Positions 24,234 to 61,946 of a DNA stretch of 64,000 bases are shown here, piece after piece. Below the pieces are notes generated by a model. It had not been told where the DNA came from. It did no database searches and saw only the letters and a list, made by a program, of their open reading frames with translations. Origin of the DNA: Candidatus Zipacnadia bacterium (GTDB lineage Bacteria > Armatimonadota > Zipacnadia > Zipacnadales > UBA5352); assembly GCA_029820295.1 (NCBI GenBank), contig JALGVA010000002.1:51481-115480 (forward strand), read 5' to 3'. Both the position numbers and the translations under genes were made by a program. Each line of letters opens with the position of its first letter. Within the stretch, counting starts at the first letter, position 1.

Positions 24234-24422
24234 CTCCCATCGGTGTCGTCCGGCCGGGAGCCTGGCGACCAAGAACACTGCTCCCCCCTTCGCCGGCGCC
24301 TGCCGCTATCCCTCGGCGGACGGTGCGAGAGTCCGACATGGGCTTGACGCGCACATGCAGGATGCCGGCGCCGGTGGGACGAAACATGCGGCCATGTGAC
24401 CGCCACCACAATGGAGGACATC

Positions 24423-35000: not shown

Positions 35001-36788
35001 GACGTCAGCGGCGGGTCGCAGTCCGGGCAGGTGGCGCCGGGCGAGGCGCGGCGCTTCGAGTGGGAGGTGTCCGCGCCCGCCGTGGGCGACGCCACCGTGC
35101 GCGTGGCGGCGAAGTCCGGCGAGTACGAGGACGCCATGCAGACCACACTGCCCGTGCACCCGCGCGGCCGGCATCGTGTCGAGCAGCGCGCGGGCGTCGT
35201 GCCCTCACGCCAGGTGGAGTCACTCCCCATCCGCGCCGACGCCATCGCGGGCGCATCGGCGCTTACCGTGCGCCTGACGCCCTCGCTGGCCGGTGCGATG
35301 CTCGGATCGCTCGACTACCTCGCGGCCTATCCCTACGGCTGCATTGAGCAGACCACCTCCGCCTTCCTGCCCGACGTGATCATCGCGCGCATGCTCGACC
35401 GGCTCCACCTCGACGCGCCGGGCCTGCGCGAGCGCCTGCCGAAGATGGTGCAGAACGGGCTGCTCAAGATCTACGGCTACCAGCGCAGCGACGGCGGCTG
35501 GGGCTGGTGGGGCTACGATGACGCCGAGCCGTGGATGACCGCCTACGTCGTGTTCGCGCTGCACCAGGCGCGGCAGGCCGGCTATGAGGTCAGTGCGCCG
35601 GTGCTGGGCGACGGCGTGGGGCGGCTGGCGGAGCTTTACGTGAACACCAGGAGCGATGACCACGAGCGCGCCTGGGCCGCGTACGTGCTGGCCCTGGCCG
35701 GACGCGCCGATGTCGTGCGGCGGGGGCGCTCGGGCGAGGGCGTGAAGGAGCTGATCGCTGCCGCCGAGCGCGGGCCCGCGGATGTGCGCGCGCTCACCTG
35801 CCTGGCGCTGCACGCCATCGGCGAGACCGTGGCGGCGCGCGATCTGCTCGACCGGCTGTGGCGCAGCGCCGAGCAGTCGGAGGACATCATCCACTGGGAG
35901 GCGGGCGGCAGCGACTACTGGCGTTCGCCCGACTCGCAGACCACGGCGCTGGCGCTGACGGCGGTCTGCCGGCTCACGCCCGATGATCCGCGCCTGACCA
36001 GGGTCGCCCGCTGGCTGCTGGTCACCCGTCGGGGCGATCACTGGTACTCCACGCGCGACACCGCGTTCGTGCTTTACGCACTGGCCGAGTACCTGCCGCT
36101 GACCGGAGAGGCCACCCCGGACTTCACCGCCACCGTCGAGGCGGACGGCGAGCAGCTCCTGTCGCGGCACTTCACGCGCGCGGACGTTGTCCGACCCGAG
36201 GTGGTCGTGCGCGTGCCTACTGAGCACCTGACTCCCGGCTCCACAGTCGAGGTCGCGATCGACCGCGAGGGTGCGGGACGGCTGTACTACACGGTGGAGC
36301 TGGACCAGTACGTGCCCGAGGATCTCGACCGGCCGCTGGTGAGCGGGACGGGCATCACCATCCAGCGCAGCTACCGCCTCGTGACCACGCGCGCGGAAAC
36401 AGGGGAGACGCTGCGCCGCGAGGCGGTGGGCGAGGCGCGGACGCAGTTCCGCAGCGGCGAGGTGATCGAGGTCACGCTGACCGTGCACAGCGAGCGCGCG
36501 CACGAGTACATGATGCTCGAGGACCCGCTGCCCGCGGGCTGCGAGATTCTCGACCGCGGCAGCGTGCCCATCTGGGAGTGGGACTGGTGGTGGGCCGACC
36601 AGATCCCGCGCGATGACCTGATGGCCTTCGCGCTGCGCGACCTGCCGGCGGGCACGCGCACGCTCAGCTACCGCATGAAGGCGCAGGTGCCGGGGGAGTA
36701 CACCGCGATGCCGCCGACCGCGTGGAACATGTACGATCCGCGCGTACGTGTCACGGGCGCCGCGGACGAGGTGGTTATCCTGCCGTAG
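32070..36788 (+). CDS. Bacterial alpha-2-macroglobulin family protein with thioester motif
   Basis: 1572 aa; 'CYTDRPAYRPGDQVHYKG' (MG domain), 'TDASGEATFRFVMPDNLTTWRATA', thioester 'YPYGCIEQTTS' (35340-35351), then TED-like 'QRSDGGWGWWGYDDAEPWMTAYVVFAL'. Start overlaps the upstream stop by 8 bp. Confidence 0.93.
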   Translation: MRERGPWRTVALAVAVAAVGVVLAWLVMGETPRGNLMGVVIAEELGIPIPDARVTLTPAHGRGSQLRIRTDAEGRFRFDDIVTGGWRLMASAQAHTMTGPRRVQVDEGATTRLRVELPPVEPFMSLSIANEVFTPDEEPRIRARGFTSLGALDVSIYRIRAAEMQQGRPTHLAGLLGMRDPSPDRWPLEGSDRLERVSRRTMPITGREAEGIFTMRLDLPGLKPGVYVVAVENEELQRIAVLNVTDLALVCKWSAQALLAWAVDIASGEPREGVQITAVADARPVGEGITGPDGLFALEIADAPDYGRVTVTARAGDAVATVETWSYGPREGDAHRVYCYTDRPAYRPGDQVHYKGVTRAVDGEAYSVPAGVPVQVQVRDDLDNLIHTANLRTGDFGSFDGTLQLPDAAIPGVYALKTSIAGEPHYSDFIVAEYRKPEWEVKVTTPRDRYVRGDEIEVTAEATYFYGAPVADASVEYHVTRSEQWYWPEADEWDWGDYDWYDDYGEGGEVVASGFGTTDSAGRLVFTVPTVMEEAEGDEGWRMPSDYSYRIEVEVTDPSRHSVSASHRVSVVQGEFRLQVEADPSILQVAETTQVTIKATDHDGDPVRASGEVRLDLTEWRGAQERFEAREHLAWATDEAGTTTVGFTPAEEGSYRVLATATDARGNAIAAGEWLWVTREAHFSYNYPYGELDLVADRRSYEEGDTARILVNTELAPVTALLTVESDTIRSHRLIELPATSTMVEVKLEPQWAPNCWIGVTFVRDKRFVMDELPVRIAPVSRKLEVTVASDREQYGPGEDAVFTVHATDPDGRAARAEVSLAVVDEALFALYPDRTRAIVDFFYPRRGHYVQTDFSFPTVYLDGADKGALAQIATRSRFVDTALWMPSAVTDASGEATFRFVMPDNLTTWRATARAHTLDTTVGEATHTALCTRPFLVRLAGPRFITQDDRLRLAAIVHNRTDGPLQADVGLRADLLDVSGGSQSGQVAPGEARRFEWEVSAPAVGDATVRVAAKSGEYEDAMQTTLPVHPRGRHRVEQRAGVVPSRQVESLPIRADAIAGASALTVRLTPSLAGAMLGSLDYLAAYPYGCIEQTTSAFLPDVIIARMLDRLHLDAPGLRERLPKMVQNGLLKIYGYQRSDGGWGWWGYDDAEPWMTAYVVFALHQARQAGYEVSAPVLGDGVGRLAELYVNTRSDDHERAWAAYVLALAGRADVVRRGRSGEGVKELIAAAERGPADVRALTCLALHAIGETVAARDLLDRLWRSAEQSEDIIHWEAGGSDYWRSPDSQTTALALTAVCRLTPDDPRLTRVARWLLVTRRGDHWYSTRDTAFVLYALAEYLPLTGEATPDFTATVEADGEQLLSRHFTRADVVRPEVVVRVPTEHLTPGSTVEVAIDREGAGRLYYTVELDQYVPEDLDRPLVSGTGITIQRSYRLVTTRAETGETLRREAVGEARTQFRSGEVIEVTLTVHSERAHEYMMLEDPLPAGCEILDRGSVPIWEWDWWWADQIPRDDLMAFALRDLPAGTRTLSYRMKAQVPGEYTAMPPTAWNMYDPRVRVTGAADEVVILP

Positions 36789-36805
36789 CCACGGGACGAG
36801 CGCTG

Positions 36806-37564
36806 ATGCGCAGCAGGCTGTCGTGGACAATCGGCGCGGCGTTCGCGCTCGCGATCGTGGCGCTGGTGGCGATGCCGCCGGCCCAGGTGGTGGTGGGCAG
36901 CTACCGCACGCCCTTCGACGGGCGCAGCGAGCACCAGCGCCTGAACGCGTTGCGGGCCGCTCAGGCGCTCGATGGCGCGGTCATCGCGGCCGGCGCGACG
37001 CTCTCCTTCAACCGCACGGTGGGCCCGTGGACCGCCGACCGCGGCTACCTCAAGGCGCCGGTCAGCTTCGGCGGTGAGATCGAGCCGGCGTGGGGCGGCG
37101 GCGTCTGCCAGACCTCGACCACGCTCTTCAACGCGGCGCTGCTGGCGGGGCTGGAGATCGTCGAGCGCCATCGCCACCAGTGGGCGCCGCACTACGCGCC
37201 CCTGGGCCGCGACGCCGCGGTCGCGCAGTACGACATCGACCTGCGCATCCGCAACCCGCACCCGTGGCCGGTGCGCATCGAGGCGCAGCCGGCGGCCGAC
37301 TCGCTGGGCATCGTGCTGCTGGGACGCCGCGCCGGGCCGCTGGCGGCGGTGCACACACAGGTGCGTGCCGTGGTACCGCCGGGCGAGGTGCTGCGCATCG
37401 ACCCCGAGCTGCTGCCCGGCGAGTGCCACCGCGTCGTGCGCGGCCGGCCCGGCTACCGGGTGCTGGTTTACCGCCGGTCCCTCGACGCCGCCGGTGGTGG
37501 CCGCGAGCTGGTCTCGGAGGACCGCTACCCGCCCATGAACCGCCTGGTGGTGGCCGGCCCGTAG
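36806..37564 (+). CDS. VanW family protein
   Basis: N-terminal TM; 'SFNRTVGPWTADRGYLKAPVSFGGEIEPAWGGGVCQTSTTLFNAALLAGLEIVERHRHQW' is the VanW core. Confidence 0.92.
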   Translation: MRSRLSWTIGAAFALAIVALVAMPPAQVVVGSYRTPFDGRSEHQRLNALRAAQALDGAVIAAGATLSFNRTVGPWTADRGYLKAPVSFGGEIEPAWGGGVCQTSTTLFNAALLAGLEIVERHRHQWAPHYAPLGRDAAVAQYDIDLRIRNPHPWPVRIEAQPAADSLGIVLLGRRAGPLAAVHTQVRAVVPPGEVLRIDPELLPGECHRVVRGRPGYRVLVYRRSLDAAGGGRELVSEDRYPPMNRLVVAGP

Positions 37565-37703: not shown

Positions 37704-40280
37704 ATGGCGTGTCGCGGCGTTGCACTACAACTGATCTGGATCCTGGGAGCATCGGCCATGAGCGCGTCACAGAGCCCCGCCGCCGAGGGCTGGGTCCATC
37801 CCGCGGGACTGATCGACCGTGCCACGCTCGACGAGGTCCGCCACAAGCGTGACACACAGCCGTGGGCGCAGGCGGTCATCGACGGGCTCGATCGCGGGGT
37901 GCAGCCGTGGCTGGCGCAGTCCTCCGAGCGCCTCGAGGAGCTGCTGCCCAGGGGAAAGGTCCAGGTCTACTGGCTGCTGATCTGTCCCGAGTGCCGCGGT
38001 CGCATGACCTTCGATCCGTTCAACGACCAGACCGCGACCTGCGAGGTCTGCGGCCGGACCTTCGCGCTCTCGGAGCCGTCGATCGCGACGCCGCCGGATG
38101 CGGCCTACGCGGGCACGCTCTACGACGGCTGGGGCTGCCACTACCTGCTGGCCATCTCCCGCACCACCCAGGAGCTGGCGTTGCTGCACGCCCTGGGCGC
38201 CGACGACAGCTACGCGCGGCGCGCCGCGGACATTCTGCGCATCTTTGCCCGGCACATCGGCCCGCTGCCCGTGCTGGGTGACAGTCATCGAGTCATCTGG
38301 ACCTACGCCTACGAAGGCGACATAAGCGTGCTGCGGCCGCTGATCGTGGCCTATGAGCTGCTGCGCGACGTGGACGGCCTGTTCACCGACGAGGATCACC
38401 GCGCGATCCGCGAGGACCTGATCCGGCACTGGACCGACTCGGTCCTGCGCTTTCAGGAGGATGCCACCCAGCGTCACAACAACACCTACCGCTGGCTGAC
38501 CACGGTCGTGCTGGCGGGCTGTGCGCTCGAGGATGCCGACTACGTGGACTGGGCCTTCGGCGTGCGTAAGTACTCGCCGGCGCAGCGCCCGAACCATCAC
38601 AGCCTGGCGTGGCTGGCCGAAAACAACTACCTGGACGACGGCGCCTTCTGGGGGCTGTGCAGCGCCTACCACCTCTACGCCCTCGGCCCGCACTGCGAGG
38701 CGATGGTGCTGGGTCGCAGGCTGTCTCAGCAGATGCCCGACCTCTTCCCGCCCGAACTATTCGACGAGATGGACCCGGCCCACCCGCGCGGGCAGGTCGC
38801 GCGCAACGCCATCAAGTGGTTCACCGCTCAGTGCTTCCCCGACCTCACCATGGCTCCCTTCGGCGACATGGGCGGGCGCGTCAGCCTGGCCACGTACCCC
38901 CTCACCGCCGAGATCGGCTACCGCTACCTGGGCATCGAGGAGGTGGGCAGCTACCGTTCGTTCCGCGAGGGCAAGCGCGGACTCACCGGCCTGCTCTACG
39001 GCGCCGACACCATCGAGGAGCGACCATGGCCCTGCGAGAGCGTGCACCTGTCCAGCGGCTTCGTGGCCCTCAAGCGCGAGACGAACGCCGGCAACCGGCT
39101 CTACGCGGGGCTGAATGCGCTCATCCCCGGCAGCGGTCACGCGCACGCCGACCGGCTGAACCTGATCACCTACGCGCGCGACCGGATGCTCTCGGGCGAG
39201 AAGCGCACGCGCTACGATGACCCCGAGCAGCGCGTCTACAGCGGCGCCTCCTACGCGCACAACACGGTCACCGTGGACGAGACCTCGCAGGTGCACGGCA
39301 ACTACCTCGAAGGCGGGCGCATCCCGCACATCGAGACCTTCGTGGACTTCCCGGTGGTGCAGGTGGCCGAGGCGCACGGCGACCGGGTCTACGAGCAGAC
39401 GCGCGCCTACCGCCGCCTGCTGTGCCAGTTCGACGACTACCTCGTGGACATCTTCCGCGTCGAGGGCGGGACGACGCATGACTGGTTCTTCCACGGCGTC
39501 GGCGAGAGTCCGGTCCTGACCATCCCGCTGGAGGAGCGCCCGTCCTTCGAGCCTGCTGCCTACGTCGTCCGCGGCGCACCCGAGTACCGAACGGGCGTGA
39601 CCGATGACACCTTCTCGGCTACCTGGCGCATCCCCGCCGCCCCCGACGCCGACCTGCCCGGGCGCCGGCGCGACGTGTTCTCGCGCGTGACCCTCGCCGG
39701 CTTCCCGGCGCAGAGCGTGAGCGTGCTCAGCACCTGGCCCAGCCCCGCTGCGCACAGCCTGATGGTGCGCCACACCGGGACCGATGACCCCTTTGTGGCG
39801 GTGCATGAGGCCTGGGTGGACGAGCCGGTGGTCACGGGCGTGCGCGCGTTGCCGGGGTCCAGTGACGCGGCGGTCGAGGTGACGCACGCGGACGGCTCCC
39901 GCCGCGTCGTGGTCTACGGCTCAGGAAGCGCCGGGGATGATGCCTCCCTGCGGGGGCGGGTGGGCGTACTTGACTTTGGCCCCGACGGCCGGCTGCGCGG
40001 CCTCGCGCTGGTGCGCGGCCGGGAGCTGCGCTGGGGCGGAGCACGCCTGCTGCGCAGCAGAGACGACGTGTGCGTATCCCTGAGCTTCGACGGCGGCGAG
40101 GTCACGGCCGTGTCCTCGCCGCCGATCGCCTGGCACACGGTCGGGGGCCGCCGCGTCCTCGCGTCCGGCAGCGAGGCGACGGTGCAGGTGCGCGTCCCCG
40201 CTGCGCTCTCCCCTACCGGCGCGGAGTGGGCAGCCACCATCGACCTCCCCGGACAGGACGGCCTCGGAGCCGCCGGCTAG
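37704..40280 (+). CDS. Heparinase II/III-like protein with a four-cysteine zinc-ribbon-like insert
   Basis: 'CPECRGRMTFDPFNDQTATCEVCGRTF'; 'TYAYEGDISVLRPLIVAYELLRD'; 'GHAHADRLNLITYARDRMLSGE' and 'YAHNTVTVDETSQVHGN', typical of heparinase II/III catalytic regions. Confidence 0.85.
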   Translation: MACRGVALQLIWILGASAMSASQSPAAEGWVHPAGLIDRATLDEVRHKRDTQPWAQAVIDGLDRGVQPWLAQSSERLEELLPRGKVQVYWLLICPECRGRMTFDPFNDQTATCEVCGRTFALSEPSIATPPDAAYAGTLYDGWGCHYLLAISRTTQELALLHALGADDSYARRAADILRIFARHIGPLPVLGDSHRVIWTYAYEGDISVLRPLIVAYELLRDVDGLFTDEDHRAIREDLIRHWTDSVLRFQEDATQRHNNTYRWLTTVVLAGCALEDADYVDWAFGVRKYSPAQRPNHHSLAWLAENNYLDDGAFWGLCSAYHLYALGPHCEAMVLGRRLSQQMPDLFPPELFDEMDPAHPRGQVARNAIKWFTAQCFPDLTMAPFGDMGGRVSLATYPLTAEIGYRYLGIEEVGSYRSFREGKRGLTGLLYGADTIEERPWPCESVHLSSGFVALKRETNAGNRLYAGLNALIPGSGHAHADRLNLITYARDRMLSGEKRTRYDDPEQRVYSGASYAHNTVTVDETSQVHGNYLEGGRIPHIETFVDFPVVQVAEAHGDRVYEQTRAYRRLLCQFDDYLVDIFRVEGGTTHDWFFHGVGESPVLTIPLEERPSFEPAAYVVRGAPEYRTGVTDDTFSATWRIPAAPDADLPGRRRDVFSRVTLAGFPAQSVSVLSTWPSPAAHSLMVRHTGTDDPFVAVHEAWVDEPVVTGVRALPGSSDAAVEVTHADGSRRVVVYGSGSAGDDASLRGRVGVLDFGPDGRLRGLALVRGRELRWGGARLLRSRDDVCVSLSFDGGEVTAVSSPPIAWHTVGGRRVLASGSEATVQVRVPAALSPTGAEWAATIDLPGQDGLGAAG

Positions 40281-43200
40281 CCCGACGTCAGGTGCAGCAC
40301 GCGGATGTCGCCCGGTGCGAGTTCCAGCACCACCGGCGCCAGCGGATCGTGCGCCGCGCCGGTCTCGTACTCCACCAGCCGCGGGTCGCGCGGCAGGTTG
40401 CGCAGCGTCAGCGTCACCGTTTCGGCCGCGTTCCCCGGGTTCATGACGATGATCAGGCGCTCGTCGCCATGGACCAGCGTCGCGAGGCGCGTCGCGTCCA
40501 GCTCCGGCTCGGACACCACCAGCTCATCGCGCCGCTGGAAGTCGAGGAAGAAGCGCTCGTGCTCGGCCACCAGCGCCGACACCCAGCCGATGCCCCAGTA
40601 GCCCGCGCCGTCGAGCACCGGCATGTACCAGATCAAAAAGCCGTTGCCCTCGTCGTCGAGCATCGCGCGCATCAGCCGAATGCGCCATGCCTCGAGCGTG
40701 GGGTAGGCGCGCTCGGCCACGAAGCGCTTCTCCACGTACATGCACCCGGAGGTGAAGGGCATCTCGCCCAGCGTGTCCATGGTGCGCTGGATGGTCTCGC
40801 GGTCGCCGTTGTAGCCGGCGATGCCCCAGTCGATGGCTCCGCTCATCAGCGCCCAGTCCACGCCGTAGAGCCACCTGGTGCGGTCGGTCGCGTAGCCGCT
40901 GTAGACCGAGAACGGGACGTCCGGGTCGGCCTGGCGGATGGCGTCGCGGATGATCGCGGCCATGCGCGCGTTCTGCTCGCAGCGGAAATCGACCCAGCGG
41001 TCCTGGTGCTGCTCGAATATCTCCTCCCGTGAAGGCACGGCCTCGAGCCCGGCCCACTCGGCGAAGGCCGTCCGGCAGCGGTCACACAGGCAGATCGAGT
41101 CCTCGTAGGTGACGGGGAACTCGTGGTCCCAGTCGATCATGTCGTAGGAGTTCTCGGCCACACGCGCCGCGAACCACTCGTAGAGCGCCGGGATGAACTC
41201 ATTCTCGGTGTCCAACACGATGGTCGGGCAGATCTGGTGATCATCGACCCGCCCGCTGCGGCAGACTGCCTTGTGGTCGGGATGGCGCTCCAGATACTCG
41301 CGGTCGATAGGCGACGGGTTATAGCCGTTGCGCGGGATGTGCCAGACGAAGCGCATTCCGTGCGGCTTCACCAGCTCCGCGGTCTCGCTCTGGTTGCTTC
41401 CCCACAGCCAGTTGATACCCGCGTCGAGGATCATCTCGGCGTTGGCGGCGGTCACGTCCGGGTTCTCGTAGGCGGAGCTGGCGTAGCAGACGATGATCGG
41501 CACCTGCTCGGGCGCCCGGCGCTTCATCGCGGGCAGGATGTGCACGGTGCTGGCGCGCTCTACCTCGACCACGTGTCCGCCCATGGCCTCATAGTGCGTG
41601 TACGCGACCAGTGTGTCCGCGTCGGGCGAGCCCACGTCCGCGACCAGGCAGGCGCGCCCGACGGTCTGCGGCGCCCGGATGTTCTCGCCGCGCGCGAGCA
41701 TGCGCACCACATAGCGCGCGCCGGGCTTGACCTCGATGGTGGGCCCGCTCACCCACAGGCCCATCTGCTGGTCGACCTGCTCCTCTGTGCCATGCAGGTA
41801 GACCGCGCGCGTGGGCCGGCCGTCGCGCTCGGTGGTGACGATGTGCGGCTCGCCATCCCAGCGCTCACCCTCGAAGTCGCCGTCCGGAACGATGTTCTCG
41901 TCGGTGCCCTTCTCCACGATGGTGATGTCGTCATACCAGCACTCGCCGGAGATGCCCCGGTTCTGCCATTTGAGCGGCAGCACCCCCAGCAGCTCGGCGA
42001 AGGGCGGCGCGGTGACCTCGACCTCGAACTCGCGCCAGTCGAAGGTGCCGCCCAGTGACAGCGCCGAGACATACTGGGCCTGTGTGCTCTCCTCGTTCTT
42101 CCACAGCAGCTCCAGGGTGAAGCCGCCGGTGAGCGTGCCGATGGGCGTCATCCGGTAACGCGTGTAATCGCGGCCGTCGTGCTGCACGCGCGTCTCGTCC
42201 AGCATCTCGAGCTGCGAGCCGTCGAGCCCGTCGAGCGCCACGATGCGGATCGGGTCGGGCATGTCGAGACAGAAGACGTAGTCGGAGGGCGGCGCGCCCA
42301 CGTAGTTCAGCAGCGGTTTGACGAACATCTGCGACTCGCGCGGCAGGTACAGGTCGGTCTCCAGCGGCCAGAAGCGCTCGCGCCGGTCGGCCACGGCGAG
42401 CACGCGGCGCAGGCAGATGGTGCGCGCGGGGAGCGCGACCGTCCCATCGACGCCGGGCGCGGGCAGCTCCTCCCAGTCGTGGGCGTCGAATCCGGGCAGC
42501 TCCCATCCCTGCTCGGGCGCGGCGGCCCAGCGCCAGCCACGGTCGAAGCCGAACTGCTGCTCGCCGCAGGTCAGGTTCCCGCCGATGCTCTCGGCCCCGC
42601 GCAGCCTGATCGCGAGCACATTCTCGCCCGGCTGCAGCGGCGTGCTCACCGGCGCGCGCTCCCCCGAGACGAGTGCGGCGAGCGGCTCACCGTTGTGCGT
42701 CATCTCGCCCTCCCCGCCGCGCAGTGTCAGCGAACCCGCCAGCTCGCCCCCCGGCGCCGACTGCACGAACCACGGTGAGCGGTAGAGCACGGTGCCATCC
42801 GCGAGGATGAGTTGGTAGCGCACATCGGGCGGCGCCTGGGTCACCAGCGACGGGTACTGCAAGCTCGCGGCTGTGGCCCCCGCGCTGACCGACATGCGGC
42901 GCACGATGTCGCGGTCGGTTCGTACGACCAGCTCGGCCGTGGCGTCGGCCGCGAGCCCGTCCAGCGCCAGCTCCAGCGCCGAAGCGCTGAGCGAGAGCCC
43001 GGCCAGGTCCGCCGGCCGCACCTGCGCGGTCTCCTCGCCGAAGATCATGCGCCCGAACTGCTCGGGCTGGTGAAAGCCACCGCTCAGCCCGCTCCAGGTG
43101 CTCGACTCGTTGTTGGGGTTCTGGTTGCGGCACAGGTTCAGGCCCCACTCCTCGCCCGCCGTCGGCGGATCGACGCCCAGGCCGGCCAGCGGGATGGCGA

Positions 43201-43726
43201 TCTCGACGTACCAGGCCTCTTCATCGGCGCGGGCGGCGGCCTGCCAGTCGAGATCGAAGTCGCCGTCCATGCCGCGCGCGTCGTAGCGCGTCCCGAGCAT
43301 GTTGACGGCGAGCTGGTAGTAGTCACCCGACGCCCCTGGCTGCAGGAAGATTTCGATGCTCTCGTCGCCGAACACATTGCCGTCATACTCGGTCACGTTC
43401 TGCCGGAGCAGATGGAGCTGCTGGGTCATCGGCGCGAGCGAACGCTCGAAGCAGGTGACGGCCAGGTAGAGCCGGTTGCCGTCGTGGCACATGAGCGCCT
43501 CGGTCTGCTGGGTGGCCGGTGCGCCGCCGCCGTTGAGCAGGAAGGGCGTCAGTACGGCCGCCCCTCGCCACGCCGGGTCGTCGAACGTGCCATCGATGTC
43601 GGGCGCGATATCAGTCTCCCCCACCAGTACCAGCGCGGGGCCGTCGGTCTGGCCGAACGCCACGCCGGCCACCAGCAGCAACGCGAGCGCGGCGGCGGTT
43701 CGCGTCAGAACTCGGCGCGTGTCCAT
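40277..43726 (-). CDS. Secreted CBM9/DOMON-like plus TIM-barrel protein (paralog 1 of 3)
   Basis: MDTRRVLTRTAAALALLLVAGVAFGQ; CBM9 'DIDGTFDDPAWRGAAVLTPF...SIEIFLQPGASGDYYQLAVNMLGTRYD'; 'IDWDHEFPVTYEDSICLCDRCRTAFAEWAG'. Confidence 0.85.
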   Translation of the reverse strand: MDTRRVLTRTAAALALLLVAGVAFGQTDGPALVLVGETDIAPDIDGTFDDPAWRGAAVLTPFLLNGGGAPATQQTEALMCHDGNRLYLAVTCFERSLAPMTQQLHLLRQNVTEYDGNVFGDESIEIFLQPGASGDYYQLAVNMLGTRYDARGMDGDFDLDWQAAARADEEAWYVEIAIPLAGLGVDPPTAGEEWGLNLCRNQNPNNESSTWSGLSGGFHQPEQFGRMIFGEETAQVRPADLAGLSLSASALELALDGLAADATAELVVRTDRDIVRRMSVSAGATAASLQYPSLVTQAPPDVRYQLILADGTVLYRSPWFVQSAPGGELAGSLTLRGGEGEMTHNGEPLAALVSGERAPVSTPLQPGENVLAIRLRGAESIGGNLTCGEQQFGFDRGWRWAAAPEQGWELPGFDAHDWEELPAPGVDGTVALPARTICLRRVLAVADRRERFWPLETDLYLPRESQMFVKPLLNYVGAPPSDYVFCLDMPDPIRIVALDGLDGSQLEMLDETRVQHDGRDYTRYRMTPIGTLTGGFTLELLWKNEESTQAQYVSALSLGGTFDWREFEVEVTAPPFAELLGVLPLKWQNRGISGECWYDDITIVEKGTDENIVPDGDFEGERWDGEPHIVTTERDGRPTRAVYLHGTEEQVDQQMGLWVSGPTIEVKPGARYVVRMLARGENIRAPQTVGRACLVADVGSPDADTLVAYTHYEAMGGHVVEVERASTVHILPAMKRRAPEQVPIIVCYASSAYENPDVTAANAEMILDAGINWLWGSNQSETAELVKPHGMRFVWHIPRNGYNPSPIDREYLERHPDHKAVCRSGRVDDHQICPTIVLDTENEFIPALYEWFAARVAENSYDMIDWDHEFPVTYEDSICLCDRCRTAFAEWAGLEAVPSREEIFEQHQDRWVDFRCEQNARMAAIIRDAIRQADPDVPFSVYSGYATDRTRWLYGVDWALMSGAIDWGIAGYNGDRETIQRTMDTLGEMPFTSGCMYVEKRFVAERAYPTLEAWRIRLMRAMLDDEGNGFLIWYMPVLDGAGYWGIGWVSALVAEHERFFLDFQRRDELVVSEPELDATRLATLVHGDERLIIVMNPGNAAETVTLTLRNLPRDPRLVEYETGAAHDPLAPVVLELAPGDIRVLHLTSG

Positions 43727-43776
43727 GGTTGCCTCCATCTGTCTGTGCTTGCGGCAACTGCATCGTCTTCGTCGCC

Positions 43777-46700
43777 TTACTGCGCCAGCCTCACGATCAG
43801 CGCCCGCGCGTCGTGCGCCGGCACAGTGAGCTGCACCTGCGCCGCGTCGGCGAAGGTCTGCCCGGTGTAGTACTCGCTGACCGCTCCGGTGGCGCCGGCG
43901 ATGGCCAGCGTGTGCGTCTCCTCCACGGAACTCGGGTTGACGATGATCGCCAGCAGCTCGCCGTCGCGCTCGAGCACGAAACGCGCGCGCTCGGGCACGC
44001 CCTGCACGCGCTCATCGGCGCGCCGGCCCTCGACGAAGAACGCCTCGTGATCGGCGACCAGCGACGCGGCCTCGGCGATGCGCGTGTAGTCCAGCCCGTC
44101 CATGGGCGTCCACTGATAGTGCATGACGCCGCGGCAGCCCGCCAGCAGGTGCTTCAGGTAGTCCACCTTCAGGTTCGGATTGCGCGGCGGCCGGTAGTAG
44201 GCCTCGCCGCCGAGCAGCGGCACGCCGTCCAGTGCCGTCACGGTGTCGGCGATCACCTGCTCGTTCCAGCCATAACCCGCCGACGCGACGTCACAGAAGT
44301 CGCGCATGATCGACCAGTCGATACAATACAACCCGCGCGCCCGCGGCGTCTGGTAGCCGCTGTAGGTGTACATCTCGCCATCGGGCACGGCCATGCGCAG
44401 GCCCTCGCGGTAGACGCCCGAAAGCTGCGCCCAGGTCTGGCAGCAGAACTCGGTCCACTGCTCCTTGTGCTGCTCCATCACGAGGGTCGGCGTCAGCTCG
44501 CCCGCGATGCCAAACTGCTCGGCGAAGGCGCCGAGGCAGCGCGGGCAGAAGCAGGCGGTCATGGGCCCGTACTCCATGTCCCACCACAGGCCCTGCGGCG
44601 GCACGGGCGCCTCGCGCAGGTAGCTGGCCAGCGCCTCGGTAGTGCGCTGCCGCCCCTCGTTGATGATCCACCGCGGGCAGGCGAAGGTGTAGCCCGAGCC
44701 GCGGTGGGCCTCATCGAAGTCCACGAAGCGGTTGCCCTCAGTGTCGATGCCGCGATGCCAGTGATAATGCGTGGACTCGGCCACGATCTTGAAGCCGCGC
44801 TCGGCCAGCAGTGGGTAGTAGACCTCGCGCGCATGGGTGCGCTCGATGTAGGCGTTGAAGCCCGCGGCCGCCATCGTGTCCAGCAGCGCCGTCATGTCCG
44901 GCCCGGCGTAGTTGCCTGCGCCGAAGCCGTGGCACATGAGCAGCTCGATCTCCCGCGGGCGCTTGCCCGGCAGCGGCGGGAGCACGGTCAGCGGCACATC
45001 GCGCGGCACCTCAACCACGGCTCCGCCCTCGCCCTCGACCCACAGGTACACGTGCTTCACGCCGGGAGGCAGATCTCCGGCACGCACCACCAGCCCCAGC
45101 GTGTGCAGCCGCTCGTTGTCGTACGACTCGTGTGCTCCCTCGCGATACGTGACCGGCTGCAGCAGCTCCCACGCCAGCTCATGGCGCGTCCACTGCTCGC
45201 CGTCGCGCTCGAAGGGCTCCGCCTGATAGCCCGCCCACGTGCCGGTCCATTCGTAGGGCTGCTTGTCCGCCCAATCGAGCAGCTCCAGGCCCGGCGGCGT
45301 CTCGATCACCAGCACGGCGCCCTGCAGCGGTCGCTCCAGCGGACTTGCCACCACCAGCGGCAGGTGCTGCGCGCCGCCGGCGACGATGTGGATGTCGTCC
45401 GGGTCGCCCAGGCTGGCGAAGTGCGTCGCCTCGGCCGCGATGACCCGTCGGAAGCACGTGCCCTGCGCGGGGTCGAGCTTCCCGCCCGCGTCCGCGGCGG
45501 GCCGCCAGCCGCTGTCGTCGAACTGCGGCTCCAGCCAGCCCTCGGCCGGCGCATCCGCCTGCCGCCAGCCCGCCGTGCCCGCGAGGTTGAGCCCGCCGAC
45601 GGTCACACGTACCGCCACCGGTTCCTCAGCGACCACCCCGAGCACGTTCGGACCCGGCTCGAGATAGCCCACCAGCGGCTCTGCGCCGCCGCGCCCGAGC
45701 GACGCGCCGTTCAGGAAGACCTCGCACGGGCCGTCGGCGCTGATGGTCGCCGCGGCGACGGCGGCGGTCGCGAAGTGACACACCGGCGACTGGTAGTAGA
45801 GCGCGTCGGTGGCGGCATCCAGCGCCGCGTAGACCACCGACACTTCTCCCGGCGTGTCGATCTCAATGGGCAGCTCGGCGCGCTCGGTCGCCCCCGCCGC
45901 GACCGGCACGGCGCGCGTGTTGCTGGTCGTGCGCTCGCCCTGGGTCACCCGCCAGCGCAGCACCACCTCGCCGCCGGCGATTCCGGTCAGCGTCGGCTCG
46001 ATGGCGTTGGCGCCCATCATCAGCGCCGGGATCGTGCCCGCCTCGACCACGACCCGCGGCGCCTCCGCGAGCAGCACCAGCCGGCCGAACTCGTCGGGCG
46101 CGTGGAAGCCGTGGGTGACCGGTGAGAACATGCTCACCTCGTTCTGAGCGATGTTGTTGCGGCATACGTTGAGCCACAGCGCCGACCCGGCGGCGGGCTC
46201 GATGCCCAGGCTACTCCACGGGATGGCGACTTCGGCGCTCCAGAAGCCCTCGTCGCCGGTGGCGCCCGCCGCCTGCCACGGCACATCCCAGCTCCCGTCC
46301 ATCCCCCGGCCTTCGTAACGGGTGCCGAGCGCGTTGGTCACGAACTGCATGTAGTCCGTGGGCGCGTCGGGGGGGCCGAGGAAGATCTCGATGGAATCAT
46401 CGTGAAAGACCCGACCGTCGTGCTCGGTCGCGCGCGCGATGAACTCGCCGGTGCGCTGCAGCGCCGGCCGTAGCACCTCGGCGCGGCAGCGCACCGCGAG
46501 GTAGAGGTCCCGCGCGTCCCACAGCGCGCGCAACTCGCTGGTCTCCTTCGGCAGGCCCTCGCCCTTGCGGGCGAAGAACTGCTGTGCCGCGGGCGTGGTC
46601 GCCCAGCAGGCATCATCGAGCCGGCCGTCGATCGCCGGAGCGGCCGTGGTGGGCGCGGCGGCCAGCGCGGTCGGCTCCCAGGCGCGCGAGCGCGTTACCG

Positions 46701-47211
46701 GTCCGATCCAGTAGTCGGTGGTGACGCCCGCCTCGTGGCCGTAGAAGTCCTGCCAGGCCGAGAAGAAGATCATCTTCACACGCGAGAAGTCGAGCGGCGC
46801 GTCCTGCGGCTGCGCGCGCACGAAGTCCCAGCTCATGGGCAGCCAGCGGCCGAGCTGATGGGCGGGGATATCGCGCCGCATCATCACCTGGTGATTGGCA
46901 GCGTCGAAGAGCTGCACCTGGATATGTGTGCTCGCGCCGGTGGTGTTCGCCAGCAACTCCCAGTGCAGCGTGTCGTAGCCGCGCCAGTCCTGCGGCTCGG
47001 CGAAGATGTGGCGGATGGCCGCGACGCCCGTGCCCGTGCAGGGCAGGCGCATGTGCAGCGCGCGGCGGCCGTCCCGGTTCTCGACCACAAGCGGCTTGAT
47101 CGGCTCATCGACGGTGAAGGCCGCGGGGTCGTCCATGGTCAGCACGGTCACATCGGCGCAGGCAACGCCGGCGGGAATCGCGGCAAGCAGCAGCACGGCG
47201 AGAAAGCGCAT
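43777..47211 (-). CDS. Secreted CBM9/DOMON-like plus TIM-barrel protein (paralog 2 of 3)
   Basis: MRFLAVLLLAAIPAGVACADV; 'AIDGRLDDACWATTPAAQQFF...DSIEIFLGPPDAPTDYMQFVTNALGTRYEG'; 'WWDMEYGPMTACFCPRCLGAFAEQFGI'. Start placed at MRFLAV, inside ORF 43777..47418. Confidence 0.85.
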   Translation of the reverse strand: MRFLAVLLLAAIPAGVACADVTVLTMDDPAAFTVDEPIKPLVVENRDGRRALHMRLPCTGTGVAAIRHIFAEPQDWRGYDTLHWELLANTTGASTHIQVQLFDAANHQVMMRRDIPAHQLGRWLPMSWDFVRAQPQDAPLDFSRVKMIFFSAWQDFYGHEAGVTTDYWIGPVTRSRAWEPTALAAAPTTAAPAIDGRLDDACWATTPAAQQFFARKGEGLPKETSELRALWDARDLYLAVRCRAEVLRPALQRTGEFIARATEHDGRVFHDDSIEIFLGPPDAPTDYMQFVTNALGTRYEGRGMDGSWDVPWQAAGATGDEGFWSAEVAIPWSSLGIEPAAGSALWLNVCRNNIAQNEVSMFSPVTHGFHAPDEFGRLVLLAEAPRVVVEAGTIPALMMGANAIEPTLTGIAGGEVVLRWRVTQGERTTSNTRAVPVAAGATERAELPIEIDTPGEVSVVYAALDAATDALYYQSPVCHFATAAVAAATISADGPCEVFLNGASLGRGGAEPLVGYLEPGPNVLGVVAEEPVAVRVTVGGLNLAGTAGWRQADAPAEGWLEPQFDDSGWRPAADAGGKLDPAQGTCFRRVIAAEATHFASLGDPDDIHIVAGGAQHLPLVVASPLERPLQGAVLVIETPPGLELLDWADKQPYEWTGTWAGYQAEPFERDGEQWTRHELAWELLQPVTYREGAHESYDNERLHTLGLVVRAGDLPPGVKHVYLWVEGEGGAVVEVPRDVPLTVLPPLPGKRPREIELLMCHGFGAGNYAGPDMTALLDTMAAAGFNAYIERTHAREVYYPLLAERGFKIVAESTHYHWHRGIDTEGNRFVDFDEAHRGSGYTFACPRWIINEGRQRTTEALASYLREAPVPPQGLWWDMEYGPMTACFCPRCLGAFAEQFGIAGELTPTLVMEQHKEQWTEFCCQTWAQLSGVYREGLRMAVPDGEMYTYSGYQTPRARGLYCIDWSIMRDFCDVASAGYGWNEQVIADTVTALDGVPLLGGEAYYRPPRNPNLKVDYLKHLLAGCRGVMHYQWTPMDGLDYTRIAEAASLVADHEAFFVEGRRADERVQGVPERARFVLERDGELLAIIVNPSSVEETHTLAIAGATGAVSEYYTGQTFADAAQVQLTVPAHDARALIVRLAQ

Positions 47212-47255
47212 GAAGTCACCTCGCAGAAACTCGTTGGGCTTCTCTCTCTCGGGGA

Positions 47256-50200
47256 CTATGGGCGCAGCACCACCCAGCGGCAGTTGAGGGGCTCGACCTG
47301 CGCGGTGAGCGCCCTCCCGTCGAGGGCTATGCCGCCGTCGTGGTCCTGGCGGGCGATGCTCAGGCCCGCCGGGACGGTCGCGGTGGCGGCGAGGTCGCCG
47401 CCGGTGGTGTCGTTGCACAGCATCACCAGCAGCTCATCGCCCAGGCGCCAGGCCACGCGCGTGGTGCCCGCGATCTCCTCGCCGGCCAGCTCATCGGCGG
47501 CGTAGGTACCGTCCACGAAGAAGTCCTCGATGGGCGCAAGGGTGCGGCTGGCGTCGGCGTAGGCGGTGTAGTGGCGGCCGTCGGTCGGGCCCCACCACCA
47601 TTGCGTGGTGCCGTCGGCGCCCCACGCGACGGACTTGATGATCTGCATGCGCGTGATGCGGCCGTCGGCGATGTAGTGTGAGGTGCGGCTGTGGCCGACG
47701 CTGAGCGTGTTCCACACCGGAATGTCCCTGAGGCCGTGCACCAGCTCGACGAAGCTGCGCGTGCCGGCGGTGAAGGTGGTCGCCAGATCGCCCACGCCGC
47801 GCGAGTAGAAGCTGGGCGTGGCCACGTCGATCACCGGGATGACCGTGGTCCAGTCGACGCGGTAGGCGCGCCGGGTGTGGTCGTTCTGCACCGCGCTGTA
47901 GACCGCGAGCCGCCAGTCCACGCCCCGCGCGCGCGCGTACGACTTCATGCGCGCGCACACGCGCGCGGTCTGTCCGGTCGCGAACTCCAGCCATTGCTCG
48001 GCGTAGCTGCTCTGGATCTTCAGCGGCGTCAGCTCGACATCATCCGCGATGCCCGCGAACTGCCGGAACGCCGCCAGGCAACGGTCGCAGAAGCACACGT
48101 TGAATGAGCCCGGCCCCTCCAGGTCCCACCAGGTACCCACGTAGCGCCCCTCGGCGACGTCCGCGAGGATCGGGTCCATCAGCCCCGCGATGGCGTCGTT
48201 GTCCTCGGCGATCATGATCTCCGGGCAAATCATGCGCTCGTCGCGCTCACCCTCGAAGTTGATGGCGGCGTGCTCGGGGTGCGCCTCCAGGTAGGCCTCA
48301 TTCCACCAGAACCACCACAGCATGCGCCAGGAGGCCATGCCGCGCGCGTGGATCTCGTCCGACCACTTCGCGTCGCGCGCGGAGATCCACGCGTCCACCA
48401 TGTTGATGCCGCAGAGCCGGTAGGTGTCGAGCAGGCGCGACCAGAACTCCTCGGTGGGGCTGATGGTCCAGCACGACATGCCCAGCGTCAGGTGCTGCAG
48501 CGGCGCGCCGCGCGGCTCGGGCAGGATGAACAGCTCACCGGCGTGCTCGGGCTCGACCTCATCGCCGGACTCCAGGTGGAACCAGAACGGATGGCTGCCC
48601 TCGGCCAGATCATCGGACGGGATCAGCCCGGCGATCCAGCCATGGTAGAACGGCGCGGTGGCGATGTCGCGCGGGGGCAGGCCGCGATCGGCGGCGAAGA
48701 CCCAGCGGACGAAGCGCCGACCGTCGCGCTCGACAGGCTCGCGGCTCACCAGCGTCGGCTTGTAGTACAGCTCGTGCACCTCGCCGGTGGCCTGGATCAC
48801 CTCGATGCCCTCGGGCACGGTGAGCACGAACGAGAAGTCCTCGTAGGTCTGCTCGGAGTGGTTGCCGGGCATGAAGATCAGGTGCTGGACGGTACCCTTG
48901 CAGACCATCAGGCGATTGCCGTCCTTCTCGGCCGGGAAGACCGCGCTGTTGAGGCCCATGCTGTGCACCACACCGGTGAAGATCGCGCACAGCACATCCG
49001 TCGCGCCGGGCGTCGAGCCCAGCGTAAGCCGCAGCTCATACTCGCCGGGGCCCCTGAGCGCGTAGGGCGCCTCCACCACCTGTGACGCACCCGCGGGCAG
49101 CTCGGCGGCGATCGGCAGCGCCTCCGCGGCGCCGCCGGGTGCGGCCACGGTCAGCTCGCCCGCGAGCCCGCGCGGCGCGTCGCCGGGGTTGGCCACAGTC
49201 AGGCGCAGGGTGCGCTCGCCGTCGCGCTCGTCCAGGCCGGTGTGCACATGCGCGACCTGCAGCGGTGGCGCGCCGAAGACGAGCACTCCGAAGCGCTCCG
49301 GCACGTGGAAGCCGTCGAAGGTCGGTGACCAGCAGGTGGCCTCGCGCACCGGCAGGCGCGAGCGACACAGGTTCATCCGCCAGGCCTGTCCGGGCTCGGG
49401 CGCGGGAGCCTCCAGATCGGTAAAGGGCACCGCAATCTCGACCGACCAGAAGTCCTCGCCGCGCCCCGCCGCCGCGGTCCACGCCGGCGCCACGGCGCGC
49501 TCTGCGGGCAGATCGTCCTGGCGCACGCCGGCGGCGTTGACGATCAGGTGCGCGTAGGTACCGTCGCCCTCCGGGTCGAGGAACAGCTCCACGCAGTCGT
49601 CCGTCCACACGCGGCCGCTGCCCGGCGCGGCATCCGCCTGCACCTGGCCCATCAGCGGCTCGTCGCAGCGCACACCCAGGTAGAGCGCCTCCGCGTCGTG
49701 CACCAGCCGCGCCGTGGTCTGCGCGGCGGCGAACGACTCTCCACGTATGGCGATGAAGCGGTCCATCACGCCCCCGGACTCCCAGCACGCGTCGTCGAGC
49801 ACGCCGTCGATCTCCGGCGGCGCGCTCGCGGCGGGGCACACCGTCGCGCGCAGACCCTGCGACAGCTCGGCCGCGTCGGCGGCCGGCACCTGCGCGGCGG
49901 GGGGCAGGTAGTCGATCGGCCCGGCTCCCGCCTGAGCACCCGCCTGCGCGGCGGCGGCCAGATCGCCCTGGGCCAGGACCACGTTGTGTGCAAAGCGCAC
50001 TTCGTCGCCGGGCGCGAAGTCGCGCATGGGGTGCAGGCGCATGGCCAGCGACAGCCGATCGTCGTCGCTGCGGCCGATGTAGTTCACGCGGTACATCTCC
50101 GGCCGGCTCACCGGCACCACGACCAGGCCGTGGCCGGTCACGGATGAGCTGAAGCCGTACCAGTCGGCCTTGAGTTCCAGCGCCAGGCTGTTGACCTCCA

Positions 50201-50720
50201 GGTCGGTAACCGGCAGCTCGCCGCCGGGGGTGGTCAGCCGGTCGAGGCCGGCCGCACACTGGAGGCCCACCGGCACGATCAGATGCGGCGTAGTCTCGGC
50301 CGCGGCCTGGAGCTGATAGCTGAGCTGGAGCACCGGGCTGCCGTCGCGGATGGTCACGGCCTTGCGCAGCGCGAAGCCGCCAAAGCTCGCACAGTCGAAG
50401 GTGAGGGTCACGCCGTCGGGCAGGTCGGTCTGCGCCACGCCCGTGGCCGGCATCCAGCTCTCATCGACCCAGTGCTGCTGCTCGCTGAAGTAGAGCCCCG
50501 CGCGCAGTGCGGTGGCGACCGGCTGCGGCACGCCCGCGGGCGTGAGGCCGGTCAGGTTGCCACACGACTTCTCGACGTCGAAGACCGCTGTGAACATGCC
50601 GTTGTCCACGGTGATCTCGGTGTCGGTGCGTATGACCTGCGCCGCCCATCCGTTGGCCGCGGCGGCCAGCAGGAGGGCCGCCGACAGCGCACGCGCCGGC
50701 TTCCCTGCGTATGACCTCAT
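47256..50720 (-). CDS. Secreted CBM9/DOMON-like plus TIM-barrel protein (paralog 3 of 3)
   Basis: MRSYAGKPARALSAALLLAAAANGWAAQ; 'EIDGVLDDACWESGGVMDRF...DDCVELFLDPEGDGTYAHLIVNAAGVRQD'; 'WWDLEGPGSFNVCFCDRCLAAFRQFAGI'. Confidence 0.85.
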   Translation of the reverse strand: MRSYAGKPARALSAALLLAAAANGWAAQVIRTDTEITVDNGMFTAVFDVEKSCGNLTGLTPAGVPQPVATALRAGLYFSEQQHWVDESWMPATGVAQTDLPDGVTLTFDCASFGGFALRKAVTIRDGSPVLQLSYQLQAAAETTPHLIVPVGLQCAAGLDRLTTPGGELPVTDLEVNSLALELKADWYGFSSSVTGHGLVVVPVSRPEMYRVNYIGRSDDDRLSLAMRLHPMRDFAPGDEVRFAHNVVLAQGDLAAAAQAGAQAGAGPIDYLPPAAQVPAADAAELSQGLRATVCPAASAPPEIDGVLDDACWESGGVMDRFIAIRGESFAAAQTTARLVHDAEALYLGVRCDEPLMGQVQADAAPGSGRVWTDDCVELFLDPEGDGTYAHLIVNAAGVRQDDLPAERAVAPAWTAAAGRGEDFWSVEIAVPFTDLEAPAPEPGQAWRMNLCRSRLPVREATCWSPTFDGFHVPERFGVLVFGAPPLQVAHVHTGLDERDGERTLRLTVANPGDAPRGLAGELTVAAPGGAAEALPIAAELPAGASQVVEAPYALRGPGEYELRLTLGSTPGATDVLCAIFTGVVHSMGLNSAVFPAEKDGNRLMVCKGTVQHLIFMPGNHSEQTYEDFSFVLTVPEGIEVIQATGEVHELYYKPTLVSREPVERDGRRFVRWVFAADRGLPPRDIATAPFYHGWIAGLIPSDDLAEGSHPFWFHLESGDEVEPEHAGELFILPEPRGAPLQHLTLGMSCWTISPTEEFWSRLLDTYRLCGINMVDAWISARDAKWSDEIHARGMASWRMLWWFWWNEAYLEAHPEHAAINFEGERDERMICPEIMIAEDNDAIAGLMDPILADVAEGRYVGTWWDLEGPGSFNVCFCDRCLAAFRQFAGIADDVELTPLKIQSSYAEQWLEFATGQTARVCARMKSYARARGVDWRLAVYSAVQNDHTRRAYRVDWTTVIPVIDVATPSFYSRGVGDLATTFTAGTRSFVELVHGLRDIPVWNTLSVGHSRTSHYIADGRITRMQIIKSVAWGADGTTQWWWGPTDGRHYTAYADASRTLAPIEDFFVDGTYAADELAGEEIAGTTRVAWRLGDELLVMLCNDTTGGDLAATATVPAGLSIARQDHDGGIALDGRALTAQVEPLNCRWVVLRP

Positions 50721-50881
50721 CTCGCCTCAGCTCCACGCTCGCCGTCCAGGTCGGCGGCCTGCGGCCGCCGCTGGGGCGTAACTTTCCATGCCGGGACCTC
50801 CCCGACCTTCGCGCGCGACCTGTCGCTCGGCGGTGTACATTGGTGACATATGACGTTTTGCTCGCGACACAAGGAGGAATC

Positions 50882-50944
50882 ATGGCAGAAAAGGAGGAAC
50901 ACATCGCCGTCGGGAAGAGCACGGCGAAGGGCATCTGTGCGTGA
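50882..50944 (+). CDS. Candidate 20-aa leader peptide (uORF) upstream of the DUF1559 gene
   Basis: AAGGAGGAATC-ATG followed by [20 protein letters not shown]; strong Shine-Dalgarno, 40 nt before the DUF1559 ATG. Confidence 0.35.
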
Positions 50945-50984
50945 GAGGGTCGCATCAATCTTGTCGAACAGAGAGGCGATAGTG

Positions 50985-51611
50985 ATGCGCAGGTCGGGCT
51001 TTACCCTGATCGAGCTGCTGGTCGTCATCGCGATCATCGCGATCCTGGCGGCCATCCTGTTCCCGGTCTTCGCGCGGGCGCGGGAGAAGGCGCGCCAGAC
51101 GAGCTGTCTGTCGAACCTCAAGCAACTTGGCCTTGCTCTCCAGATGTACGCACAGGACTACGACGAGTACCACCCGCGCTACTGCCGGGTTGAGGTCGCG
51201 GGCTGGGACGACGGGGTGAATGTGGGCGGGTACACCGTCTACAGCGGGCTCATCCCCTACGTGAAGAACACCCAGATCTTCGTGTGCCCCAGCGACCGGC
51301 CTCCGGGCCAGATCAACTGGAGCAGTTGGGGCTACAACATCACGACATATACCTCCTACGGCCTGAACTGGTACTACTACCTCTCGCCCCCCTACATGGA
51401 CGAGACCTTCAACGGCGACGACCCGGCACGGGTCGCGGCCATGACCGAGTTCGACGCCAGCTATCACACCGCGTACTGGCCGTGGATGAACAACGATGGC
51501 CTGTTCCTGCATAACGGCGGCCAGAACGTGGTGTTCGGCGATGGCCACACCAAGTGGTACAGCCGGACGGACATCATCAGCGGCTTCAACTCCTACGGCT
51601 ACAAGTCATAG
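50985..51611 (+). CDS. DUF1559 / H-X9-DG prepilin-type protein (copy 1)
   Basis: [50 protein letters not shown] (type II prepilin-like leader and helix); C-terminal '[17 protein letters not shown]' matches the H-X9-DG motif. Confidence 0.95.
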
Positions 51612-51637
51612 CGCACGTCGCGAGGGAGTAGAACCTG

Positions 51638-51669
51638 CGGGCCCCGCGGGCTTGCCGCCGGGGGGCCCG
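51638..51669 (+). terminator. GC-rich hairpin after DUF1559 copy 1
   Basis: Stem CGGGCCCC/GGGGCCCG with inner GCGG/CCGC; followed by TTCGTGTACCG, no long T-tract. Confidence 0.5.
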
Positions 51670-51847
51670 TTCGTGTACCGTATGCATGTGACCCCTCGTC
51701 CCCGCAGCATTCGGGTTGGGCCCACCGGCGAAAGAGGAATCCATGCAGAAAAGGCGAAGCCAGAACAGCGGCGTGCTTTCAGCCCGCCGACGCTCCTTAC
51801 GTGAGGGGCATCTGCATCCATCTCAGGCGACAGGAGAAGGTAACGCA

Positions 51848-52483
51848 ATGCGCAGGTCAGGTTTCACGCTCATCGAACTGCTGGTCGTCATCGCAATCAT
51901 CGCGATCCTGGCGGCCATCCTGTTCCCGGTCTTCGCCCGGGCGCGGGAGAAGGCACGGCAGACCAGTTGTCTGTCCAACCTCAAACAGCTCGGACTCGGT
52001 CTCGCGATGTACAGCCAGGACTACGACGAGTGCCACCCGGTCTACTGCCGGGTGGTGATCGCGCCCAGCTACACCAACGGCGTCGATACCGGTGGCCACA
52101 CGATGTACGGCGCGCTCGTCCCCTACGTCAAGAACGCCCAGATCTTCCAGTGCCCGAGCCACCGGCCCGTGACCGGCATCAACTGGAACAACTGGGGGTA
52201 CGCCATCACCACCAAGACGTCCTACGGCATCAACCTCTACTACCTGAACAACAGTTCCTACAAGTACGCCAGCGACACCCTCAGCAACGATGACCCGGCC
52301 CGCGTCGCCTGCATGACCGAGTGGGACGGCAGCTACCACTCCGTCTACTGGCCGTGGATGAACAGCGATGGCCTCTACCTGCACAACGGCGGCCAGAACG
52401 TCGCGTTCGCCGACGGCCACAGCAAGTGGTACAGCGAGACGGACATCGTTAGCGGCTTCGACCAGTACGGCTACAAGATGTAG
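51848..52483 (+). CDS. DUF1559 / H-X9-DG prepilin-type protein (copy 2)
   Basis: [61 protein letters not shown]; '[17 protein letters not shown]'. Frame is also open to an upstream ATG at 51743. Confidence 0.95.
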
Positions 52484-54872: not shown

Positions 54873-54974
54873 TGCCGAAAGGGACCTCCAGTCGGGTCGG
54901 TCGCGGCGGTAGGGACGCACACCTGGTGCTTCGCCCTCGAAGGCGCACCGGCCTTCATGCCACGCGAGAGGAGC

Positions 54975-55161
54975 GCGCCCGCGGGCGCAGGAGACGCTCG
55001 CGTCGCAAACGCGAGCACCGACGGCGCAGCGGCGCAGACGTCGTGCCGAGTGCAGCGAGGCGCGAGACTGCGCCGCCACCGGCGATGCGCGCGGAGGTCC
55101 GTCCGAAGGACGGGGCGTAGCGCGCGAGCCGGCCGCGGGCGCCGACCGGTCGCTACCGGTC
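54975..55161. repeat. Cluster of four perfect short hairpins in a divergent intergenic region
   Basis: GCGCCC-GC-GGGCGC (54975-54988), GCTCGCGT-CGCAA-ACGCGAGC (54996-55016), CCGTCC-GAA-GGACGG (55099-55113), GACCGGT-CGCT-ACCGGTC (55144-55161). Confidence 0.5.
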
Positions 55162-55339
55162 CCGGCCTGCCGCTGAGCACACCGTTCGGCCGATTGCGCG
55201 CGAAGACACATGCGCCTCACCCACGCCGTCGCCGTCAAGCTGCGCAACGTGCCATCAGGAGGTGCGGGCACGCGCGTCGCGAAGCCACTCGCACACCACC
55301 GAACGCGAAGCCGTCGCTCGACCAGGAGGACGCCACAAA

Positions 55340-61840: not shown

Positions 61841-61946
61841 CGGCCGCACGATCCGCACCTGCGCGCCGATGCCTGCCGGCAACCGTCGGGGGCGTAGCCG
61901 ACCGTCCGCGCGACCGCGCATCATCTCGGCCACGTCGGGGCGGAGC

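Follow-up and report, generated by a model that had tools for sequence, protein, structure and literature searches.

The window analysed here is a stretch of 64,000 nucleotides with a GC content of 70%, taken from an assembly of Candidatus Zipacnadia bacterium (phylum Armatimonadota) that counts 5.6 Mb in 331 contigs. It holds a row of three genes, P1, P2 and P3, each of which encodes a large secreted protein with a CBM9 domain and a C-terminal barrel. The features of the row, and the heparinase II/III-like genes around it, are:

40277..43738, minus strand: P1, 1153 aa, secreted; CBM9, beta-rich linkers and a GH42/GHL10-like barrel
43016..43627, minus strand: CBM9 of P1, aromatic-clamp equivalents F123 and F222
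41120..41131, minus strand: W870-D871-H872-E873 of P1, at the end of beta4, with E873 aligned to the GH42 acid/base E141
41075..41092, minus strand: C883, C885 and C888 of P1, with C837 (codon 41228-41230) the proposed zinc site
40280..41521, minus strand: barrel and C-terminal beta-sandwich of P1 (residues 740-1153), from AlphaFold2 and Foldseek
43777..47211, minus strand: P2, 1144 aa, secreted; N-terminal module of ~180 aa, CBM9 and barrel
46054..46665, minus strand: CBM9 of P2, aromatic-clamp equivalents F269 and F369
43780..44967, minus strand: barrel and C-terminal beta-sandwich of P2 (residues 749-1144), from BLAST homology
47256..50720, minus strand: P3, 1154 aa, secreted; N-terminal module of ~295 aa, CBM9 and barrel
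49247..49835, minus strand: CBM9 of P3, aromatic-clamp equivalents W372 and F471
47259..48512, minus strand: barrel and C-terminal beta-sandwich of P3 (residues 737-1154), from BLAST homology
21174-24278, 37704-40280 and 52563-55367: heparinase II/III-like genes, two of them also with DUF4962, near or adjoining the trio

The third-position GC of the three reading frames (0.92-0.93) marks them as real genes, and each N-terminus reads as a signal-peptide-like segment. An initial reading of the sequence without database searches (the sequence-only reading) had already described three secreted same-strand reading frames in a row, and these were recovered at 1153, 1144 and 1154 aa. The start of P2 lies at position 47211, at the ATG ahead of MRFLAVLLLAA; a GTG-start reading frame of 1213 aa was discarded as an over-extension. 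The order of transcription is P3, P2, P1, with spacers of 44 bp and then 38 bp, somewhat shorter than the 45-50 bp first estimated. The proposed architecture of a CBM9 domain with a C-terminal barrel holds for all three proteins, on the basis of Pfam, fold and profile matches. Moreover, the homology extends beyond CBM9, the point on which the sequence-only reading had said that it could fail: the pairwise identity in BLAST amounts to 31-37% for the CBM9 domains and 26-29% for the barrels (E 1e-25 to 1e-37). The modules N-terminal to CBM9 differ between the proteins in pairwise alignments. For P1 the model of residues 1-745 reached a pLDDT of 64 and was of low confidence except for CBM9, and the middle beta-domains were therefore left without a name.

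The CBM9 domains of P2 and P3 score above the Pfam cut-off for CBM9_1, whereas that of P1 remains below it and gave a sub-threshold match to CBM9_2 only. However, the best fold matches of the P1 model are the CBM9 structures 7nwn and 1i82 (fold E 1e-9), and a profile made of the three sequences aligns with CBM9-2 of T. maritima at an E-value of 9.5e-8. In the CBM9 of Xyn10A two Trp positions sandwich the terminal sugar, and in the alignment both of these positions are aromatic in P1, P2 and P3. As judged from sequence, the combination of a profile or fold match with the two sandwiching aromatics places all three domains within CBM9, where they would serve to tether the enzyme onto glycan chains.

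The barrel was harder to place. Neither the barrels of P1-P3 nor those of 33 relatives score above the cut-off of any Pfam or NCBIfam family, in line with the earlier statement that no CAZy family could be named with confidence, for which a search of the C-terminal part with HMMs had been proposed. More specifically, the GH42 model PF02449 gave no match in P1-P3 at E<=1 and a best value of 0.0045 among the 33 relatives, the GHL10 model PF02638 gave no match in P1-P3 and hit one of the 33 relatives at E 0.0049, and a phmmer search of the PDB with the single P1 sequence returned nothing useful. The barrel family thus escapes the models that stand behind annotation. A family profile was built from 37 relatives and compared by hhalign. 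It matched the GHL10 proteins of the same genome group with a probability of 99.5% (E 1.5e-22, 268 columns) and true GH42 proteins with 98.6% (E 6.2e-16, 293 columns, most of the barrel), whereas ten unrelated proteins of the window each stayed below 2%. The structural model that had been suggested as a check gave, with good confidence, a TIM barrel that carries a beta-sandwich at its C-terminus (P1; pLDDT 90.2, pTM 0.88), and its nearest solved folds are those of GH42 and Cwp19: in Foldseek against the PDB 6y2k (GH42) and 5oq3 (Cwp19) come out equal at E 5.7e-11, with 1kwg and 6lvw slightly behind. The TM-score to GH42 and Cwp19 is only about 0.55 and many other TIM-barrel families appear at similar Foldseek E-values, so that the barrel is to be seen as a relative and not as a member. 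The best reading of profiles and model is an unclassified family that would lie between GHL10 and GH42 and belong to neither.

A CxCxxC motif next to an acidic residue had been noted in each protein, and it is indeed present in all three (C883/885/888 in P1, C887/889/892 in P2 and C876/878/881 in P3). The family alignment revealed a fourth Cys, C837 in P1, that is conserved as strongly as the other three, each position being kept in 50-51 of 52 homologous barrels. C837, E873, C883, C885 and C888 of P1 align with C106, E141, C150, C152 and C155 of 1kwg, the GH42 enzyme of T. thermophilus A4; the profile-to-PDB match with 1kwg alone is marginal (E 0.011). The GH42 enzyme Gal42 has been modelled with zinc in the equivalent four-Cys cluster, and the zinc of Bca-beta-gal, also of GH42, was reported to be stabilising and not catalysing (PMC8573354). 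The cluster, which is common in GH42 though not universal there, appears by its aligned positions to be present in the trio as well.

Relatives that have lost Cys residues bear on the role of the cluster. In a paralog from another genome (L120:493-4896, in G022) the four Cys have become Ser, Gly, Gly and Asn, while the Glu of beta4 and that of beta7 are both kept; in a distant paralog (L018) one Cys only is lost. The joint loss of the four is expected if they form one structural metal site, and the retention of the beta4 Glu argues for a structural zinc. For the same reason a catalytic zinc was set aside as the leading idea. The suggestion that the Cys motif binds a metal is thus supported, with the amendments that the site needs C837 and that its role is probably structural. 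From the comparison with GH42 the cluster is probably a structural zinc site of the GH42 type, in which C837, C883, C885 and C888 would clamp the loop after beta4 beside the active site. The paralog without the four Cys offers a natural test of this site. As a mark specific to the trio the motif did not stand up: CxCxxC is also found in GHL10 members and in other TIM-barrel glycosidase-like families of this genome, which makes it a trait of the superfamily.

Conservation over the 52 homologous barrels (P1 numbering) singles out a small set of residues: E873 (52/52), D871 (49/52), D970 (47/52), Y976 (49/52) and D/E1043 (49/52). In the AlphaFold2 model E873 follows beta4, Y976 lies at the end of beta6, residue 999 on beta7, and D1043 belongs to the loop that follows beta8. 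Reading the beta4 segment of P1 (DMIDWDHE) as a GH18-like DxxDxDxE motif was ruled out, since the family conserves only W-D-x-E. On the strength of its alignment and invariance E873, at the end of beta4, would be the general acid. Residue 999 aligns with the GH42 nucleophile, and here the family is split. A Glu is found in all 17 members of one clade (L012-type), but in 0/5 of the P1, 1/3 of the P2 and 0/3 of the P3 group, and in 1/14 and 0/5 of the others. P1 has a Cys and P3 no acid, and P2 itself has the Glu where its two orthologs have Val. The split allows natural homologs to be used for a direct test of how a catalytic nucleophile is gained or lost.

In our view, P1, P2 and P3 represent an unclassified family of secreted, predicted glycan-cleaving enzymes with a barrel of the zinc type, a reading to which we assign a probability of roughly 0.6. 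Because the beta7 nucleophile is missing, an ordinary double displacement with two Glu residues would be impossible in P1 and P3. Cwp19 has Gly328 in place of the beta7 Glu (PMC5765458) and nevertheless shows lytic transglycosylase activity (PMC6016235), from which we infer a mechanism without beta7 nucleophile for P1 and P3 too. As has been proposed for GHL10, cleavage would then probably be inverting, assisted by the substrate or of the transglycosylase type, with the conserved D871, D970, Y976 and D/E1043 as candidate partners of the acid.

Two other readings of the active site have to be considered, both of which we regard as rather improbable. The barrels could be ordinary retaining glycosidases with GH42-like chemistry, in which another carboxylate, such as D1043 of the beta8 loop or E1003 of P1, takes the place of the beta7 Glu. 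The conservation of D/E1043, the full two-Glu set throughout one clade and the beta7 Glu of P2 agree with this, but outside the Glu clade position 999 is occupied by C, V, T, Q, R, K, M, A or L, and a near relative of P1 (L030) has no acid at the position of E1003. Conversely, P1 and P3 could be non-catalytic, glycan-binding pseudo-enzymes that aid P2 or the L012-type enzymes. That the beta7 acid is missing, as in every P1 and P3 ortholog examined, would also be expected of a lectin-like barrel, and the CBM9 together with several beta-domains points to binding; yet in a dead site the remaining residues should have been lost as well, whereas E873 is kept in all 52 barrels and neither D970 nor Y976 nor D1043 varies within the groups of P1 and P3. 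That the trio arose by recent local tandem duplication with later specialisation, as first proposed from the common strand, adjacency, short spacers and domains in common, is very improbable and was rejected in its recent form: a maximum-likelihood tree of the barrels places P1, P2 and P3 apart, in three deep clades that each also hold orthologs from other families within the order or the phylum, and forcing the three groups into one clade is rejected by the AU test (p=1.3e-5). Moreover, the gene order P3-P2-P1 was found again in a different family of the same order (G028:C345), which marks the arrangement as old and conserved rather than as a newly formed tandem array. A very ancient duplication is possible as the source of the row.

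In addition to the three heparinase II/III-like genes the window encodes GH2, DUF6259, DUF4838 and BNR_4 proteins. Two adjoining DUF6785/DUF6784 proteins are encoded at 59843-63890 (plus strand), and a copy of the first, 64% identical, lies near the barrel gene in L120. The presence of three heparinase II/III-like genes beside the trio suggests an acidic polysaccharide as target, and the neighbourhood as a whole (the heparinase II/III-like genes, GH2, DUF6259, DUF4838 and DUF6785) would fit the breakdown of a complex, possibly acidic, polysaccharide. Within it, a gene for a bacterial alpha-2-macroglobulin is followed by a VanW-like gene (32061-37564, plus strand). Two DUF1559 (SBP_bac_10) pseudopilin-like genes with prepilin-type N-terminal motifs (50850-52483, plus strand) are divergent from P3. 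Such genes also lie close to the barrel genes in L118, L120 and L125 and in the vicinity of members of the family in G028, G022 and G045. The link between DUF1559 and the barrel genes is suggestive, and weak in view of the 61 DUF1559 matches in the genome itself.

Relatives of the barrel, distant members included, are present in 91 of the 291 genomes of the phylum that were searched. The source genome (G000, 5.6 Mb) contains a large repertoire of barrel glycosidases, with 29 matches to CBM9_1, 23 to the GH42 model and 15 to GHL10. In a published survey very few extracellular CAZymes were reported for Zipacnadia (PMC10290634), and barrel families of this kind may be part of the missing extracellular repertoire. 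A more far-reaching proposal, which we put forward tentatively and consider less probable than not, is that of a new GH family in which a zinc-stabilised barrel of the GH42 type has kept the acid and repeatedly lost the beta7 nucleophile. Two mechanisms would then exist among the related secreted enzymes of one genome, and P3, P2 and P1 would act jointly on one complex polysaccharide.

A comparison with known systems shows where the trio stands. With the CBM9 domains of T. maritima Xyn10A (1i82) and C. kristjanssonii (7nwn) it shares the profile, the fold and the two aromatic clamp positions, but most of the clamp Trp are Phe and the domain is joined to a different catalytic barrel. With the beta-galactosidases of GH42 (PF02449; 1kwg, 6lvw, 6y2k) the barrel has in common the fold, the positions and spacing of the four Cys, and an acid/base Glu ahead of CxCxxC. 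One clade of the family, and P2, retain the GH42 nucleophile on beta7, which P1 and P3 lack. Where GH42 has the NE motif the trio has WDxE, of which the Glu aligns with E141 while the Asn before it is missing; the GH42M trimerisation domain found no match in the trio, whose proteins differ from GH42 in being secreted and multimodular. The best profile match is to the peptidoglycan-cleaving GHL10 (PF02638; Cwp19 of C. difficile, 5oq3), likewise a TIM barrel, which has an acid on beta4, a Tyr at the end of beta6 and no acid on beta7 (PMC5765458), a pattern matched by P1 and P3 and partly by P2. The GHL10 members of the same genome also carry CxCxxC after beta4, as the trio does. In contrast to GHL10, the beta4 motif of the trio is WDxE, CBM9 and further modules are attached, and the beta7 position, a fixed Gly in GHL10, varies over the barrel family except in one clade.
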